Assembly (NCBI RefSeq): GCF_029243085.1
Contig: NZ_JAQWSS010000115.1
Location: 1 to 39,840 of the forward strand
From: Candidatus Thioglobus sp.
GTDB lineage: Bacteria > Pseudomonadota > Gammaproteobacteria > PS1 > Pseudothioglobaceae
DNA length: 39,840 nucleotides
Direction: 5' to 3'
How positions within the stretch are numbered: position 1 is the first letter of the stretch; each line of letters starts with the position of its first letter. The position numbers were made by a program, and so were the translations under genes. This document shows, piece by piece, positions 1-37,384 of the stretch. The notes below the pieces were generated by a model, which saw only the letters and a program-made list of their open reading frames with translations, searched no databases and was not told the origin of the DNA.

Positions 1-389
1 CGCTTATTGGCCTCAACAGTTGAATACATGCATAGTCTAGAATTGCTTTCTATATTGTCAATACCATAAGCTTGAGAAAATTTTTTCGCAACATACAAAT
101 CTTCCATAAGCATTTGTCCAGATAAATATAAAGCAATCTGAGTTTTTTCAACTAATTGAAAATTTTTTACAATTTTATCAATAGTTTTATTCCAAGAGCC
201 AATTGAAGGCTCCAACAATCTATCATTGTCTGTACCAACGGTTTCTAGCAAAGTTTGACCTTTGATACACAGCATGCCCTGGTTAACTGGAGAATCTTTA
301 TCGCCAATTAATTTCAATAAAGAGCCGCTGCGGCTAATTTCAATCCCGCACCCAACACCGCAATATGGACAAGTCGTTTTAAAGCTCAT
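1..389 (-). CDS. nasA: Assimilatory nitrate reductase catalytic subunit, N-terminal part
   Basis: This gene is not in the ORF track because it is cut by the window edge. Translation from the ATG at 389 begins MSFKTTCPYCGVGCGIEI, and about 129 residues are visible. The Cys pattern C-x2-C-x3-C near the start, followed by a fourth Cys in GMLCIKGQ, is the [4Fe-4S] ligand set of molybdopterin oxidoreductases. The segment NSRLCMYSTVEANK resembles the NasA/NapA group. The family reduces nitrate to nitrite in the cytoplasm using bis-MGD. The start codon directly abuts the stop of the kinase gene with no clear Shine-Dalgarno, which suggests translational coupling. NasA is favoured over NapA because of the nirB/narK context and the absence of a Tat signal. 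The C-terminal part, including any BFD domain, lies outside the window. Confidence 0.88.
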   Translation of the reverse strand, partial: MSFKTTCPYCGVGCGIEISRSGSLLKLIGDKDSPVNQGMLCIKGQTLLETVGTDNDRLLEPSIGSWNKTIDKIVKNFQLVEKTQIALYLSGQMLMEDLYVAKKFSQAYGIDNIESNSRLCMYSTVEANK

Positions 390-2087
390 TTAAACAATTA
401 GTAGTAGTAGTAAAATAAAATTAATGATAAACAATAAGGCGATATACAATCGATACCTATTTAAGTGTGACGATGGCTCTATACTCTTTGCAATCTTTAA
501 AAAATTTGAATTCGGATGTTCCAAATCATACAAAAATTCACTTAAAACCTCATAACGTAAATTTTTATCTAAATGGCAAGCTTTTCGAATAGCGCCATCA
601 ATCCAAAGTGGTAAATTTGGATTATACCCAATTGCCGAATCATAAGTTAATTTAGATAATTTCTTGGTGTTTATATTCTTATCTAATTTATCTTGATATG
701 GCAGAACCGAAGTAAACATTTCATAAACAATTGCACCTAAACTAAATTGATCTGAAGCTTGAGAAACTCGCTCTTCTAAAATAACTTCTGGTGCAGTATA
801 GCCCTGTGTACCTTGATTTCCAAGTAATACTATCGGGTTGTTTAATTCTGCAACGCCAGCTATACGTGTCGAACCAAAATCAATTAATTTGATTTGCCCC
901 ATTTTATCAATCATAATGTTTTCTGGTTTTAGATCACAATGTAGCATTTCTTGTCGATGAAACGCTCTTAAACCCTTAATGATCTGCTTAACAAAACTAA
1001 CAACGGTTTTAGGATCGGGCTGCTTGTTTTCATCCATCCATTGTCGTAATGTCTGACCTTCAATATATTCCATCGCATATGCTAAAAATACTGGTTTTTC
1101 ATTATTAGTATAAATTTTAACCACATGAGGACTTTGCACTCTTTGTCCAGCCCATTGTTCATACATAAAATGCTTAAGATATTGCGGATCATCTTCGAAA
1201 TTAACTGATGGCGTCTTTAATGCAACTTTTAGACCTGATTCTATATCCTTTGCTAGATACAATTGCATCTTGGAGCTTGAAGAATGTAAAGAGCTAATTT
1301 CAAAACCGTTAAGCTTCATTCCTTTAGTTAAATCTGGTGGCACAGGTCGTTGTGTTAGCTCATCAAACTCCTCGTCCATTTTTTTTTCGGGTAATTCTTT
1401 AATGTTTACAATTGCAGCTGTAATATTATCTAAACTGCCTGAATTCAATGCCCGATTCACCAGGTCTTTCGAATTTGAATCGTGATTCATAAGGATTTCC
1501 AACAGTGCATTATCTAAATAATCATGCACACCATCAGTTGTCATTAGTAGCTTATCACCCACTTTAACATCTAGGGTTTGATAATCAACATTTACCTTTA
1601 AGTCAAACCCCATCGCACGTGACAAATAAGCTTTTTCTTTATTGATGTTGATAACGTGATCTTTTGTTAATTGGGTTAGCACACCCGTACGATAACGATA
1701 TACTCGTGAGTCTCCTACATGAAAAATATGAGCAGTATTAGATTTAACAATTACTGTACTCAAAGTCGATAACATTGAAGAAACTTCGTTGTCACGCATT
1801 GATTGGGAAAACAACCAATTGTTTAATGCTGAGATAACTTTGGTCGCTGAATGCTCTACACTCCAAGAGTCAGGAGTTGAATAATAATCGCTTAAGAAAC
1901 TATTCACACAACAGCTACTCGCCTCTGAGGCTCTTTCACAAGCACTAACACCATCAGAAATTACAGCAGAGACTCCTTTATATTCAATCGCTTGCTGATC
2001 AGGAATATGATATGCGCAAGCATCTTGATTTTCAGACTTTACACCAGGAATTGAATGCAAATCAACATTGATTTTAAGCTTCTTCAT
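390..2087 (-). CDS. Bifunctional PP2C-type phosphatase / Ser-Thr protein kinase
   Basis: The 565-residue protein fuses two signalling domains. Residues about 5-230 carry PP2C metal-site motifs: ENQD (19-22), SDG (44-46), HVGDSR (123-128), TTDGVHD (183-189) and DN (220-221). Residues about 260-530 form a kinase with VALK (Lys291), HCDLKPEN (383-390), DFG (403-405) and APE (432-434). The nucleotide loop at 264-275 is Ser-rich and lacks the usual GxGxxG. A single hydrophobic helix (about 547-565) ends the protein, so it probably sits on the inner membrane facing the cytoplasm. A similar fusion lies in the assimilatory nitrate cluster of Pseudomonas, which supports a role tied to nitrate uptake or reduction. 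Its substrate is unknown. It lies 6 bases after narK and abuts nasA. Confidence 0.9.
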   Translation of the reverse strand: MKKLKINVDLHSIPGVKSENQDACAYHIPDQQAIEYKGVSAVISDGVSACERASEASSCCVNSFLSDYYSTPDSWSVEHSATKVISALNNWLFSQSMRDNEVSSMLSTLSTVIVKSNTAHIFHVGDSRVYRYRTGVLTQLTKDHVININKEKAYLSRAMGFDLKVNVDYQTLDVKVGDKLLMTTDGVHDYLDNALLEILMNHDSNSKDLVNRALNSGSLDNITAAIVNIKELPEKKMDEEFDELTQRPVPPDLTKGMKLNGFEISSLHSSSSKMQLYLAKDIESGLKVALKTPSVNFEDDPQYLKHFMYEQWAGQRVQSPHVVKIYTNNEKPVFLAYAMEYIEGQTLRQWMDENKQPDPKTVVSFVKQIIKGLRAFHRQEMLHCDLKPENIMIDKMGQIKLIDFGSTRIAGVAELNNPIVLLGNQGTQGYTAPEVILEERVSQASDQFSLGAIVYEMFTSVLPYQDKLDKNINTKKLSKLTYDSAIGYNPNLPLWIDGAIRKACHLDKNLRYEVLSEFLYDLEHPNSNFLKIAKSIEPSSHLNRYRLYIALLFIINFILLLLLIV

Positions 2088-2093
2088 CTCTAA

Positions 2094-3563
2094 TTAATTT
2101 ACTTTAATAATCTCAACTGTACCGTCATCCAATATTTCAGTCATTTGACCCTTAGGCTCATCCAAAAACAATACGATTAGCGATAAGACAATTAAAGCCA
2201 TAATCCCAATTAACATAAAGAAATCATCATATTCTACCAAAGAATTTACCGTTAGAAACATTACTGAACCAGCGGCGCCAAACGCTCCAACCATACCAGC
2301 AATTTGTCCTGTCAAACGTCGTTGTATTAATGGAACCATGGCAAAAATTGCACCTGATCCTGCTTGTGAAAAGATTCCACCTAAAATTGTTAGACCAACA
2401 ACCCACCCAATATGCCAGGTATCTTTATCAATATTTCCCAGCGCTATAAAACTAATCGAAAGTCCAAAAAAAGCAATCACTAAAGAAAGTTTTCTGCCAA
2501 TTCTGTCACTAATCCAACCGCCGCCTGGTCGTGCTACTAAATTAATAAATGGATATGCGCCTGCTAGTAATGCAGCAGTAACTTTTGGCAGGTCAAACCA
2601 GTCAACATAAAACATCGCCAGAATAGAGACCACGGCTAACTCAGTGCCAAAAGTAACAAAATAAGCCCAATCTAGAATGACAACTTGTTTGAAATTGTAC
2701 CGACTTTGCTTTGGTATTGTATTTTTAACTATCTCTGAATTTACTTGCCAGATTTTAACTAGTTGAGCCATGAATACTAACATTAAGATTGTATAAACTA
2801 TCCAGGCTGTTTCTAGTGAAATCATGTTGGCCATAGCAGGGGATAATTTCCATGTTAACAATGCCAAGGCTAAATAAAGAGGTATATTCATCAGAATGTA
2901 CATAACCAAGTCTCTTAAACTAGAAACTTCCATAGCGCCCGACTTTTTCGGTTTAAAGTAAGTTGACCCTTTTGGCGTATTAGTCACATTAAAATAATAG
3001 AATACGCCATAGATTATTGCAGCAACACTTGCGATTGTGATGGCAAATCTCCATCCATCTATATCTCCAAAGCTTGCGGCAACAAATGGCAAAGTGAACA
3101 TTGCACCCGCTGAACCAAAATTACCCCATCCGCCATATATACCTTGCGCCGTACCAGTTTGCTTTGCCGGAAACCATTCGGAAATCATACGAATACCGAC
3201 AACAAAACCAGCGCCAATAAATCCTGAAAAGAATCTCATTAACGCTAGCTTATCATAATCCTGCATCCAGCTAAAAGATATAGAGATAAGGCCACCTAAT
3301 ATCAAAATCGATGAAAACATGATTTTAGGCCCTAATTTATCAACAAGCATTCCTACTACAACTCTTGCAGGAATTGTTAATGCAACATTTAATATTAAAA
3401 GAACTTTTGCCTGTTGATCGCTTAACTCTAAAGCTTCTTGGATAAATGGCATCATTGGTCCTATGCCCAACCAAACCACAAAAGTCATAAAAAATGCAAA
3501 CCATGTCAGATGAAGAATTTTATATTTACCTCTAAATGATAGTATGTTTAATTTATCTTTCAT
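2094..3563 (-). CDS. narK: NarK-type nitrate/nitrite MFS transporter
   Basis: The 489-residue major-facilitator protein has about 12 hydrophobic segments spread through its length. It carries NarK/NrtP-family signatures: RMISEWFPAKQTGTAQG and GGWGNFGSAG in the first half, and ARPGGGWISDRIGRK after the central loop. It should move nitrate in, or exchange nitrate for nitrite, across the inner membrane. It lies 14 bases after nirB and 6 bases before the kinase/phosphatase gene, so all are probably one transcript. With nasA and nirB next to it, assimilation of nitrate to ammonium is the likely job. Whether it is a proton symporter or an exchanger cannot be told from the sequence. Confidence 0.92.
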   Translation of the reverse strand: MKDKLNILSFRGKYKILHLTWFAFFMTFVVWLGIGPMMPFIQEALELSDQQAKVLLILNVALTIPARVVVGMLVDKLGPKIMFSSILILGGLISISFSWMQDYDKLALMRFFSGFIGAGFVVGIRMISEWFPAKQTGTAQGIYGGWGNFGSAGAMFTLPFVAASFGDIDGWRFAITIASVAAIIYGVFYYFNVTNTPKGSTYFKPKKSGAMEVSSLRDLVMYILMNIPLYLALALLTWKLSPAMANMISLETAWIVYTILMLVFMAQLVKIWQVNSEIVKNTIPKQSRYNFKQVVILDWAYFVTFGTELAVVSILAMFYVDWFDLPKVTAALLAGAYPFINLVARPGGGWISDRIGRKLSLVIAFFGLSISFIALGNIDKDTWHIGWVVGLTILGGIFSQAGSGAIFAMVPLIQRRLTGQIAGMVGAFGAAGSVMFLTVNSLVEYDDFFMLIGIMALIVLSLIVLFLDEPKGQMTEILDDGTVEIIKVN

Positions 3564-3577
3564 TGTTACTGCCTAGA

Positions 3578-5962
3578 CTAAGCCGACTTATCACTTCTGT
3601 GATCTACTGTCACCCACGGATTTTTAATCGTCTTAGGTAATTGATCTGCCCATTTTTTGATTTTATCCGGTGTGTCTAATTTTGATTGGATGTATTCCAA
3701 GCCAACACGCTCTTCAAAATGCATTACGCGCTCAAGGTAATTTGCTTCAACACGATACAACTGCACAAAAGCCTTTAAATACTCAACTACATCGGTTTCT
3801 GACTCGAAGAATCGGTCCTTCAAACACGCCTTTGTACGAATACCACAAGCACCTGCCACATGAATTTCATAGCCTTTTTCTGTACAAATAACGCCAAAAT
3901 CTTTAATGGTTGCTTCGGCACAATTACGAGGACAGCCACTCACACCCATCTTAAATTTATGTGGCATAAAGTGCGACCAAACCGCATCTTCCATCTTCAC
4001 CGATAAACCCATAGAATCCTGTGTACCCATCATACAATGCTCGGTACCCACACAAGATTTACAAGTTCTCGTCGCCTTTCCGTATGCGTAACCAGATTCC
4101 ATTCCTGCATCAGCAATCTCTTCCCACATATCGTTCAAATTCTCTTTTGGAATGCCTAATAAATCAATACGTTGTCCACCCGTCACTTTTACCGTCGGCA
4201 CTTCATACTTAACTGCAATTTCAGCTAATGACTTAAGCTCTGCAGGGGTTGTTAAACCACCCTGCATTTGCGGCACAATTGAATAAGTACCATCACGTTG
4301 CTTGTTTGCATGCATCATTTCGTTATGCGGTCGCTCTACATCATTATGCTCATACTCATCATTAAATTGTGAAGATAAATAGTAGTTAATTGCCGCACCA
4401 CAAGCTTCACAAGAGCCATTAAAACCCATTTCAGAACGAACTTCATCGATGGTTTTTACACAGTCTAACGCCCTGATATATTCACGTACCTCCTCTGTTG
4501 AATACTTGCTACAATCGCATAGTGTCTCTTTAGCAACTAATTCTGCACCTGAAACAAAGCTAAATATTTGCTTTGCCACTGATCCACACCCGCCACAACC
4601 TGTTGCACAACCTGTCTCTTCTTGCATTGCTTCGAAAGTATCACAGCCGCCTGAAACTGCACTAACAATGTCACCCTTGGTAACGCCCATGCAGCCACAA
4701 ACCTGTTCATCGTCTGCCATTTTTTCGACGCCTGAAGCTCCTGCACTTGCCTCATCAATACCAATATCACCAAACAGTAAAGTTTTTCGCATATCGGTGA
4801 TATCTGTTTCATTTTTAATTAAATCAAAATAAAACAACCCATCAGTCGAATCACCGAATAAAACAGCGCCCACTAATTTATTATCTCTAATTGATAGACG
4901 TTTCCTAGTGTTAAGAGCATGATCCTTAGAACACATGACCTCATCATCTGGATTGTCAAATTCTCCCGCTGAAAAAACATCAACGCCTGATATTTTTAAC
5001 TTAGTAGATAAATCTGATCCAGTGTACATATGATGATTTACCTCGCACACTTGCTCTGCGCAAACACGCGCCTGCTCAAATAATGGCGCAACCAAACCAT
5101 AAGTTGTGCCACGATGCCTAATGCATTCACCCACTGAATAAATAGTAGGATCAGAAGTCATCATCGTGTCAGTCACCACAATTCCTCGATCAGCATGCAA
5201 GCCAATTTCATGAGCTAAGGCATCATTTGGAATAATGCCAACAGACATAACCACCATGTCGGCTGCCATAGTACTTCCATCCTCAAATTCAAGCGACTCA
5301 ACTTTATTACTACCAACAATTTTGGTAGTAATTGCATCCAGTTTGAATTTAATATCCTTTTGCTCTAGCACTTTTTGCAGTAATCCGCCAGATGATGAAT
5401 CTAGCTGCATATTCATAATTGAACTCATATTGCCAATAACAGTAACATCAAACCCAAGTTCATTTAAGCCGTTTGCTGCTTCAAGGCCTAATAATCCAGT
5501 GCCAATCACGGCAACCTTCTTACCTTTGCCAGCTTCTGATTTCATATATTCAACATCATAAATATCTCTGAACGAAACCACACCCTCCAATTCGTTACCC
5601 GGCAGTGGCAAAATAAACGGAGTTGAGCCTGTGCACAATACAAGTCGATCATAATTCAATGATCCGACATTACCCTTGTCATCCGTTAAAGTCACATTTT
5701 TACCTTTACGATCAACCGTATTTACAATATGACCAGGCTTGAATACAATATTATTCTGTGCAAAATATTTGTGATCATGAGTTTGTATTTCTTCAAAAGT
5801 TTTCTCACCTGCTAAAACTGGCGATAGCATAATTCTATTGTAAGGAAGTACAGCCTCCTCTCCTACAACTGTAATGTGATACTTTAATGGATCAATCTTT
5901 AAAACCTCGTCCACCACCTTCATTGCACTCATTCCAGATCCAACTATTACCAAATTTTTCAT
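3578..5962 (-). CDS. nirB: NAD(P)H nitrite reductase, large subunit
   Basis: The 794-residue protein should reduce nitrite to ammonium in the cytoplasm with siroheme and iron-sulfur clusters. It begins with an FAD-binding GSGMSAMK motif. A second Rossmann motif, VIGTGLLGLEA, lies near 152-162. Two BFD-like [2Fe-2S] regions follow, at about 422-459 (CGCMGVTKGDIVSAV and CATGCGGC) and 482-521. Siroheme/[4Fe-4S] ligands are visible as CVGTEHC (637-643) and CPRNC (677-681), matching the NirB spacing. It is the first gene of the minus-strand operon, with a plausible ribosome site AAAGG about 8 bases before the ATG. The small subunit gene nirD is not next to it, which is unlike many nirBD operons. 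Length is slightly below the E. coli protein. Confidence 0.95.
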   Translation of the reverse strand: MKNLVIVGSGMSAMKVVDEVLKIDPLKYHITVVGEEAVLPYNRIMLSPVLAGEKTFEEIQTHDHKYFAQNNIVFKPGHIVNTVDRKGKNVTLTDDKGNVGSLNYDRLVLCTGSTPFILPLPGNELEGVVSFRDIYDVEYMKSEAGKGKKVAVIGTGLLGLEAANGLNELGFDVTVIGNMSSIMNMQLDSSSGGLLQKVLEQKDIKFKLDAITTKIVGSNKVESLEFEDGSTMAADMVVMSVGIIPNDALAHEIGLHADRGIVVTDTMMTSDPTIYSVGECIRHRGTTYGLVAPLFEQARVCAEQVCEVNHHMYTGSDLSTKLKISGVDVFSAGEFDNPDDEVMCSKDHALNTRKRLSIRDNKLVGAVLFGDSTDGLFYFDLIKNETDITDMRKTLLFGDIGIDEASAGASGVEKMADDEQVCGCMGVTKGDIVSAVSGGCDTFEAMQEETGCATGCGGCGSVAKQIFSFVSGAELVAKETLCDCSKYSTEEVREYIRALDCVKTIDEVRSEMGFNGSCEACGAAINYYLSSQFNDEYEHNDVERPHNEMMHANKQRDGTYSIVPQMQGGLTTPAELKSLAEIAVKYEVPTVKVTGGQRIDLLGIPKENLNDMWEEIADAGMESGYAYGKATRTCKSCVGTEHCMMGTQDSMGLSVKMEDAVWSHFMPHKFKMGVSGCPRNCAEATIKDFGVICTEKGYEIHVAGACGIRTKACLKDRFFESETDVVEYLKAFVQLYRVEANYLERVMHFEERVGLEYIQSKLDTPDKIKKWADQLPKTIKNPWVTVDHRSDKSA

Positions 5963-6004: not shown

Positions 6005-6058
6005 AAAAAAAAGCCAGACATTAGGCAAGCAATTCAATGCATGCCCAATGTCTGGCTT
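6005..6058 (-). terminator. Leader terminator 2 of the nir-nas operon
   Basis: On the minus strand AAGCCAGACATT (6058-6047) pairs with AATGTCTGGCTT, and an inner GGC/GCC extends the stem. Eight T residues follow. It lies 42 bases upstream of the nirB start codon, after the second hexaloop pair. It is a strong intrinsic terminator that any transcript reaching nirB must pass. Confidence 0.82.
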
Positions 6059-6095
6059 CAATACCTTGTATGGCCTATCCATCTTTGAATTGGCC
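6054..6095 (-). promoter_or_regulatory. Second ANTAR-like hexaloop pair (module 2) in the nirB leader
   Basis: Directly after the T-run of terminator 1 comes hairpin P1' (6095-6072). Its outer GGCC/GGCC and inner ATTC/GGAT arms are separated by one mismatch, and it carries the hexaloop AAAGAT, again A1 and G4. Six bases later, GGT-ATTGAA-GCC (6065-6054) can form a small hairpin whose six-base loop also has A1 and G4. Its 3' arm lies inside the 5' arm of terminator 2. The P1' hairpin is convincing. The second one has only three pairs and is speculative. The layout repeats module 1, which suggests two attenuators in series. Confidence 0.5.
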
Positions 6096-6146
6096 AAAAA
6101 AAAATGTTTACTTATTTTTTCTATTTAAGAAAGAACAAGTAAACAT
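6096..6146 (-). terminator. Leader terminator 1 of the nir-nas operon
   Basis: ATGTTTACTT (6146-6137) pairs perfectly with AAGTAAACAT (6113-6104). A run of nine T residues (6104-6096) follows on the minus strand. The 5' arm overlaps the second hexaloop hairpin, which makes this a conditional terminator and not the end of an upstream gene; no minus-strand gene ends here. Confidence 0.72.
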
Positions 6147-6177
6147 CTGTGTCTGTTGTTAACCATCGTTGGATAAC
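6096..6177 (-). promoter_or_regulatory. ANTAR-type antiterminator/attenuator module 1 in the nirB leader
   Basis: Read as RNA, the leader starts with hairpin P1 (6177-6158), GTTATCC-AACGAT-GGTTAAC. Its six-base loop has A at position 1 and G at position 4. Three bases later, hairpin P2 (6154-6141), AGAC-ACAGAT-GTTT, has another A1/G4 hexaloop. The 3' arm of P2 is shared with the 5' arm of an intrinsic terminator, so P2 and the terminator exclude each other. Two such hexaloops form the published ANTAR-protein target (NasR/NasT/EutV class). I infer that a NasT-like protein stabilises P1-P2 and lets transcription continue when nitrate is present. No nasT or nasR gene is in the window. The P2 stem is short and includes one G-U pair. 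Confidence 0.68.
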
Positions 6178-6186
6178 TATAAATTT

Positions 6187-6217
6187 ATTATATACTAGAT
6201 AAAGTATGCAATATCAA
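6187..6217 (-). promoter_or_regulatory. Probable sigma-70 promoter of the nirB-narK-kinase-nasA operon
   Basis: On the minus strand TTGATA (6217-6212) and TATAAT (6192-6187) are separated by 19 bases, which is slightly long. Initiation about seven bases later would fall near 6180, just before the first leader hairpin, as expected for a leader that starts with an antiterminator element. A short inverted repeat, ATACT/AGTAT (6192-6207), lies in the spacer and overlaps the edge of the -10 box; it could be an operator. No GG-N10-GC sigma-54 pattern is seen. Confidence 0.5.
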
Positions 6218-37279: not shown

Positions 37280-37288
37280 GGCCAAACT

Positions 37289-37357
37289 GCCAAGGAGCGT
37301 TGCGTTGAAACATGTTTTCAATCAGGCTTGGCTATCAAAATACTCAAAACGACGCTC
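37289..37357 (+). ncRNA. SAH riboswitch upstream of ahcY
   Basis: The sequence has the consensus parts CCAAGGAGCGTTGCG, CAGGCTTGG and AACGACGCTC. GCCAAG (37289-37294) pairs perfectly with CTTGGC (37327-37332). TTGAAA/TTTCAA forms the inner hairpin. GAGCGTTG pairs with CGACGCTC (37350-37357) as the pseudoknot with one wobble. The class binds S-adenosylhomocysteine and turns on SAH-recycling genes. The aptamer ends 15 bases before the AAGGAG ribosome site of ahcY. No separate terminator is visible, although a T-run follows the last helix. Confidence 0.93.
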
Positions 37358-37384
37358 ATTTTTTAATTTTTTAAGGAGAAAAAA

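Follow-up and report, generated by a model that had tools for sequence, protein, structure and literature searches.

The nirB leader of this Candidatus Thioglobus sp. is predicted to be a tandem attenuator, in which two ANTAR modules stand in series and a NasT-like protein would act at both of them. From the sequence comparisons set out below, we put the probability of this reading at about 0.8. The leader lies in the window, by which we mean the whole stretch of 39,840 nucleotides that was analysed (contig C34; the draft genome comprises 1.16 Mb). The original prediction of two ANTAR-type attenuators in series is borne out by conservation and covariation across relatives, by the presence of an ANTAR gene in the genome, and by outgroup leaders that carry a single module.

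Architecture of the nirB leader

The leader occupies the minus strand from about 6180 to 5963, with a TATAAT hexamer ahead of it and nirB starting at 5962. Between 6180 and 6005 it reads, from 5' to 3', P1, P2, terminator 1, P3, P4, and terminator 2. The features of the leader and of the operon behind it are as follows, with the evidence for each in brackets.

6187..6192, minus strand: -10 hexamer TATAAT in extended context (sequence; similar spacing to P1 in aligned relatives)
6158..6177, minus strand: P1, GTTAuCC-AACGAT-GGuTAAC, predicted recruitment hairpin of module 1 (fold, sequence, compensatory stem changes)
6141..6154, minus strand: P2, AGAC-ACAGAT-GTTT, predicted antiterminator hairpin of module 1 (sequence, conservation)
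6096..6148, minus strand: terminator 1, hairpin 6148-6102 with T9 at 6104-6096 (fold, covariation)
6072..6095, minus strand: P3, GGCCaATTC-AAAGAT-GGATaGGCC, predicted recruitment hairpin of module 2 (fold, conservation)
6054..6065, minus strand: P4, GGT-ATTGAA-GCC, 3-bp stem, predicted antiterminator hairpin of module 2 (conservation)
6005..6059, minus strand: terminator 2, hairpin 6059-6010 with T8 at 6012-6005 (fold, covariation)
3578..5962, minus strand: nirB, large subunit of NADH nitrite reductase, predicted first controlled gene (Pfam Pyr_redox_2, Fer2_BFD, NIR_SIR)
2094..3563, minus strand: MFS transporter, narK-type nitrate or nitrite transporter (Pfam MFS_1; operon position)
390..2087, minus strand: fusion of PP2C phosphatase and Ser/Thr kinase, inside the nitrate assimilation operon (Pfam)
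3..389, minus strand: start of nasA, molybdopterin nitrate reductase, cut by the contig end (ORF MSFKTTCPYCGVGCG...; name inferred from motif and position)

All four hexaloop hairpins and both terminators that had been proposed for 6005-6180 are present in the predicted order, and each of the four loops (AACGAT, ACAGAT, AAAGAT, and ATTGAA) has A at position 1 and G at position 4 (A1/G4), as claimed, a pattern that is largely kept in relatives. The second hairpin of each module was said to overlap the 5' arm of its terminator, which is confirmed for both: the 3' arm and loop end of P2 sit within the 5' arm of terminator 1, while P4 spans the start of terminator 2 and overlaps its 5' arm. P3 begins directly after the T tract of terminator 1. 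The linkers measure 3 bases between P1 and P2 and 6 bases between P3 and P4, and the loop-to-loop distance in module 1 of nirB and glnK leaders is 20-25. P4, with its three pairs, has no stable fold alone. As a whole, the leader strand folds better than its shuffles (z = -9.2), and among 5000 dinucleotide shuffles of the leader 0.5% contain four separate A1/G4 hexaloops, a rate that leaves out the further demand that two of the hexaloops overlap terminator arms. The leader combines the features of an ANTAR target RNA, namely paired A1/G4 hexaloops (twice), a short linker and terminator overlap, with an ANTAR gene in the genome, and is predicted to form two complete sensor-terminator units within 176 bases.

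Transcription is expected to start at around 6180, immediately 5' of P1. A simple promoter scan gave no full sigma-70 match at the nirB promoter, so its -35 element appears to be weak or absent. An Rfam search of the window returned no ANTAR family match at the nirB leader; loose matches at this position (microRNA, telomerase, and others) were put down to chance similarity with long hairpins and discarded. Nor was the fold of the plus strand in the leader region taken as a second RNA, since it reflects the palindromic terminators. Elsewhere in the window, an SAH riboswitch at 37286-37364 on the plus strand exceeds the Rfam cut-off.

In the published ANTAR model, a dimer attaches to the first hexaloop before the second, preventing the terminator, and A1/G4 are required (PMC3369931, PMC8934654). 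For the nirB leader this would mean that RNA polymerase initiates just 5' of P1 and that transcription is halted ahead of nirB, first at terminator 1 and next at terminator 2, whenever active ANTAR protein is absent. An active NasT-like ANTAR dimer would bind P1 and then P2, and with P2 held terminator 1 would be prevented; the same action repeated at P3 and P4 would prevent terminator 2, and only transcripts past both terminators would reach nirB, narK, the kinase gene, and nasA. Doubling would lower the leak and steepen the response, because read-through would be the product of two similar probabilities if one protein serves both modules. On this reasoning, a steeper response from doubled modules is plausible.

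Conservation and covariation across relatives

The family compared, whose name came from a search with the ANTAR protein, is the SUP05/Thioglobus group, including Ruthia, Vesicomyosocius, and the Bathymodiolus thiotrophic symbionts. In the upstream regions of NirB relatives (five genera, one family), about 29 of 30 nirB leaders share the tandem layout; in leader L008 module 2 is decayed. A1 and G4 are found in 31/32 and 32/32 loops of P1, 31/31 and 30/31 of P2, and 26/31 and 30/31 of P3, where these counts take in one or two glnK leaders and those of P3 come from a loop-anchored alignment, the automatic alignment of module 2 (A2) misaligning this hairpin. Retention of A1/G4 in relatives thus agrees with the original prediction, except for A1 of P3, which is lost in five leaders. 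The fourth hairpin had been considered doubtful and does have three pairs only, but both A1 and G4 are present in 30/30 relatives and its GGY/GCC stem is kept in nearly all of them, although the linker 5' of P4 is variable.

In the alignment of module 1, 99% of cells pair and five pairs have changes on both sides; its covariation score was reached by 0 of 500 shuffles, and pairing falls to 35-56% when the partner strand is shifted by 1-3 columns. Helix cells of terminator 1 are paired in 99.4% of cases, with compensatory changes at 4 pairs, and in terminator 2, 12 of the 16 pairs show double changes with pairing kept. Covariation in the hexaloop stems, which had been suggested as a check, is present in part: P1 has clear compensatory changes across relatives, but P2 and P4 hardly vary. 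Because the latter stems are nearly invariant and their 3' arms are shared with the terminators, they offer little independent covariation, and P2 and P4 are supported by their conserved sequence and their position rather than by covariation.

Single modules outside the family

In other Gammaproteobacteria, ranging from Thiotrichaceae to Enterobacter, 19 ANTAR leaders next to nasT/nasR-like genes were compared; all have one module and a single terminator before the gene, in keeping with the earlier statement that one unit is usual in ANTAR leaders. Module doubling therefore looks like a trait of the SUP05/Thioglobus family. The outgroup comparison rests on these 19 nas leaders and not on R1, the covariance model of module 1. 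R1 matches 72 of 83 family genomes, frequently with two or three matches per genome, and has no match outside the family among 369 genomes sampled from the class (the sampled order holds the SUP05/Thioglobus family alone); the model is family-specific, and its silence in other families is no evidence that ANTAR RNAs are missing there.

To gauge chance overlap, terminators elsewhere in the compared loci were scanned, and 24 of 152 overlapped an A1/G4 hexaloop in the raw scan. By reading, about 19 of these 24 are ANTAR leaders, which leaves a chance rate of about 4-5 in about 133 unrelated terminators. A different arrangement is seen 5' of nirB in L032-L035, which belong to a second NirB lineage (about 66% identical) and have no terminators. 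There, dual A1/G4 hexaloops stand directly before a hairpin that covers the RBS (CCTTTTAA...TTAAAAGG), which suggests a translational ANTAR switch.

The putative NasT-like regulator

The ANTAR gene is found in 68 of 83 family genomes, nearly always as a single copy, closed genomes included. In the window's own genome a contig end (C100) truncates it to its C-terminal part, and the neighbouring glnK-amtB genes are missing from the assembly. The regulator is a 194-aa receiver-ANTAR protein with 79-91% identity across the family and 40-51% identity to NasT-type proteins encoded beside nas operons or NasS elsewhere. When its receiver domain is aligned with EutV, Asn56 replaces the phospho-Asp and Asp105 the conserved Lys, and both residues are invariant in five relatives. 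Phosphorylation of the regulator is therefore unlikely.

A nasT or nasR gene, and with it nitrate sensing, had been expected. A NasT-like protein was indeed found, but a search of the window's own genome and 16 relatives detected no member of the NasS family (PF13379), while PF13379 was found in 12 of 14 control genomes. The gene itself travels with glnK-amtB: glnK lies upstream of it in 33 of 40 loci having at least 2.5 kb of upstream sequence, and amtB and a CBS protein gene may be present or absent. In the clam symbionts (L076, L187, L192, and L197), amtB is missing or decayed and glnK, the CBS gene, and the ANTAR gene are retained. With NasS undetected and the gene most often part of the glnK-amtB operon, nitrogen status is a likelier signal than nitrate, and the regulator probably responds to this broader cue. 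We infer that the family ANTAR protein is the ligand at both modules and that a nitrogen-status signal would be relayed by GlnK, AmtB or another partner, rather than by NasS or phosphorylation.

The architecture could be as described and the regulator still sense nitrate or nitrite like NasT, via an unrecognised NasS substitute. Its closest counterparts are the NasT proteins adjoining nitrate genes in other Gammaproteobacteria, and nirB is among its targets; however, the lack of detectable NasS in the 17 genomes, the main linkage to glnK-amtB, a target set that includes ammonium, urea, and serine genes, and the retention of the regulator in genomes without full-length nirB make nitrate sensing unlikely.

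Predicted targets across the family and alternative readings of the doubling

The element belongs to a predicted regulon, which the original prediction did not foresee. With the targets of R1 assigned by eye from the first downstream reading frame, double modules stand before glnK-amtB (nearly all leaders), with the ANTAR gene usually in that operon, before nirB or narK, before urtA, and, within a captured glnK-type leader, before serB. Autoregulation of the ANTAR gene is therefore implied by the glnK leader. Single modules precede serC, fructose-bisphosphate aldolase, a small DUF-type gene, and porin-like genes, and one genome (G007) carries both forms, double at glnK (L078) and single at serC (L136). 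In L128 and L130, a glnK-type double leader and a truncated glnK start precede serB, as if promoter and leader had been captured from glnK. In the urtA leader L139 (G047:C16), modules 1 and 2 are almost identical copies in tandem and apparently arose by a separate, recent duplication. In the glnK leader L076, module 1 is lost and module 2 alone is kept.

Losses of this kind (L008 at nirB, L076 at glnK), together with the weak P4 and the less strict loops of P3, would agree with only one module being responsive, the other terminator acting as a constitutive brake or being a decaying relic. This is rather improbable, since a constitutive second terminator would silence the operon, A1/G4 of P4 are invariant in 30 leaders although the linker varies, strong terminators persist at both sites across five genera, and the urtA leader L139 represents a separate duplication of a near-identical module. 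The original prediction had also allowed for a two-input switch, with modules answering to different proteins or signals. The hexaloop sequences do differ between the modules and P3 is longer than P1, but each genome has essentially one ANTAR gene and the same module pair recurs at glnK, nirB, urtA, and serB, which makes two inputs very improbable. Tandem terminators are common and both hairpins are strong, but that they merely insulate nirB from upstream transcription, with hexaloops by chance, is scarcely credible and was dropped: a conserved -10 is found between the terminators and the upstream gene, this gene, moaE, is divergent and there is therefore no transcript to insulate from, and in nearly all relatives an A1/G4 loop overlaps each of the two terminators, an arrangement that is rare by chance.

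Relation to known systems

With the ANTAR dual-hexaloop attenuators of EutV/eut, NasR/nasF, and AmiR/amiE (PMC3369931, PMC8934654), the nirB leader shares the A1/G4 hexaloop pair, the terminator overlap, an ANTAR protein in the genome, and nitrogen genes downstream. The four attenuators of eut are spread between operon genes, whereas here a single 176-base leader ahead of the first gene holds two complete ones, and, unlike a phospho-activated regulator of the EutV type, the receiver lacks the phospho-acceptor Asp and the conserved Lys. The NasS-NasT system of Azotobacter, Pseudomonas, and Paracoccus (PMC3795266, PMC5424462) likewise has a NasT-like REC-ANTAR regulator and targets in nitrite/nitrate assimilation; in the present case NasS is undetected, the gene lies in the glnK-amtB operon, the leader is doubled, and the target set is wider.

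Nitrogen regulons of a similar kind, with the same target classes and more than one attenuator per unit, were described by Ramesh et al. (2012), who predicted ANTAR RNAs upstream of genes for P-II, ammonium, urea, and nitrite and, in Desulfotomaculum acetoxidans, counted 13 attenuators distributed over six transcription units. ANTAR RNAs before these gene classes are thus already published. The text of that study is silent on two attenuators sharing one leader, the literature consulted describes no tandem leader conserved throughout a family, and our literature search found no mention of SUP05 together with ANTAR; what appears to be new is a conserved leader with two modules and a regulator that is linked to glnK and has no NasS. 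Outside the ANTAR systems, the closest parallel is found in pseudo-cooperative tandem riboswitches, such as tandem TPP riboswitches, in which independent attenuators for the same signal stand in series and a steeper response is expected (PMC9481103). These act by metabolite-induced termination, whereas a protein ligand and anti-termination are predicted here.

Nitrogen control in the SUP05/Thioglobus family

The sigma-54 DNA-binding domain is missing above cut-off in 71 of 83 genomes, the window's own included, and classical NtrC control would therefore be unable to operate in most genomes of the family. GlnD is present in 51 of 83 genomes, again including the window's own, and was undetected in the many g5 genomes. 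ANTAR control may have replaced NtrBC. The fuller proposal is tentative, at somewhat less than even odds: in SUP05/Thioglobus and the animal symbionts, an orphaned NasT-like ANTAR protein coupled to GlnK-AmtB may have taken over general nitrogen control from NtrBC, with tandem attenuators providing sharp switching of the genes that take up ammonium, nitrate, and urea.

In the literature consulted, ANTAR leaders place one attenuator before a gene, and a family-wide double leader would be the protein-ligand counterpart of pseudo-cooperative tandem riboswitches. The occurrence of single and double leaders within one genome makes the question of what doubling buys directly testable. Tandem ANTAR leaders look like a form of sharp RNA-level nitrogen control common to the whole family, and may explain how nitrogen uptake is controlled in abundant marine sulfur oxidisers and in the reduced symbionts of clams and mussels, most of which have no detectable sigma-54.
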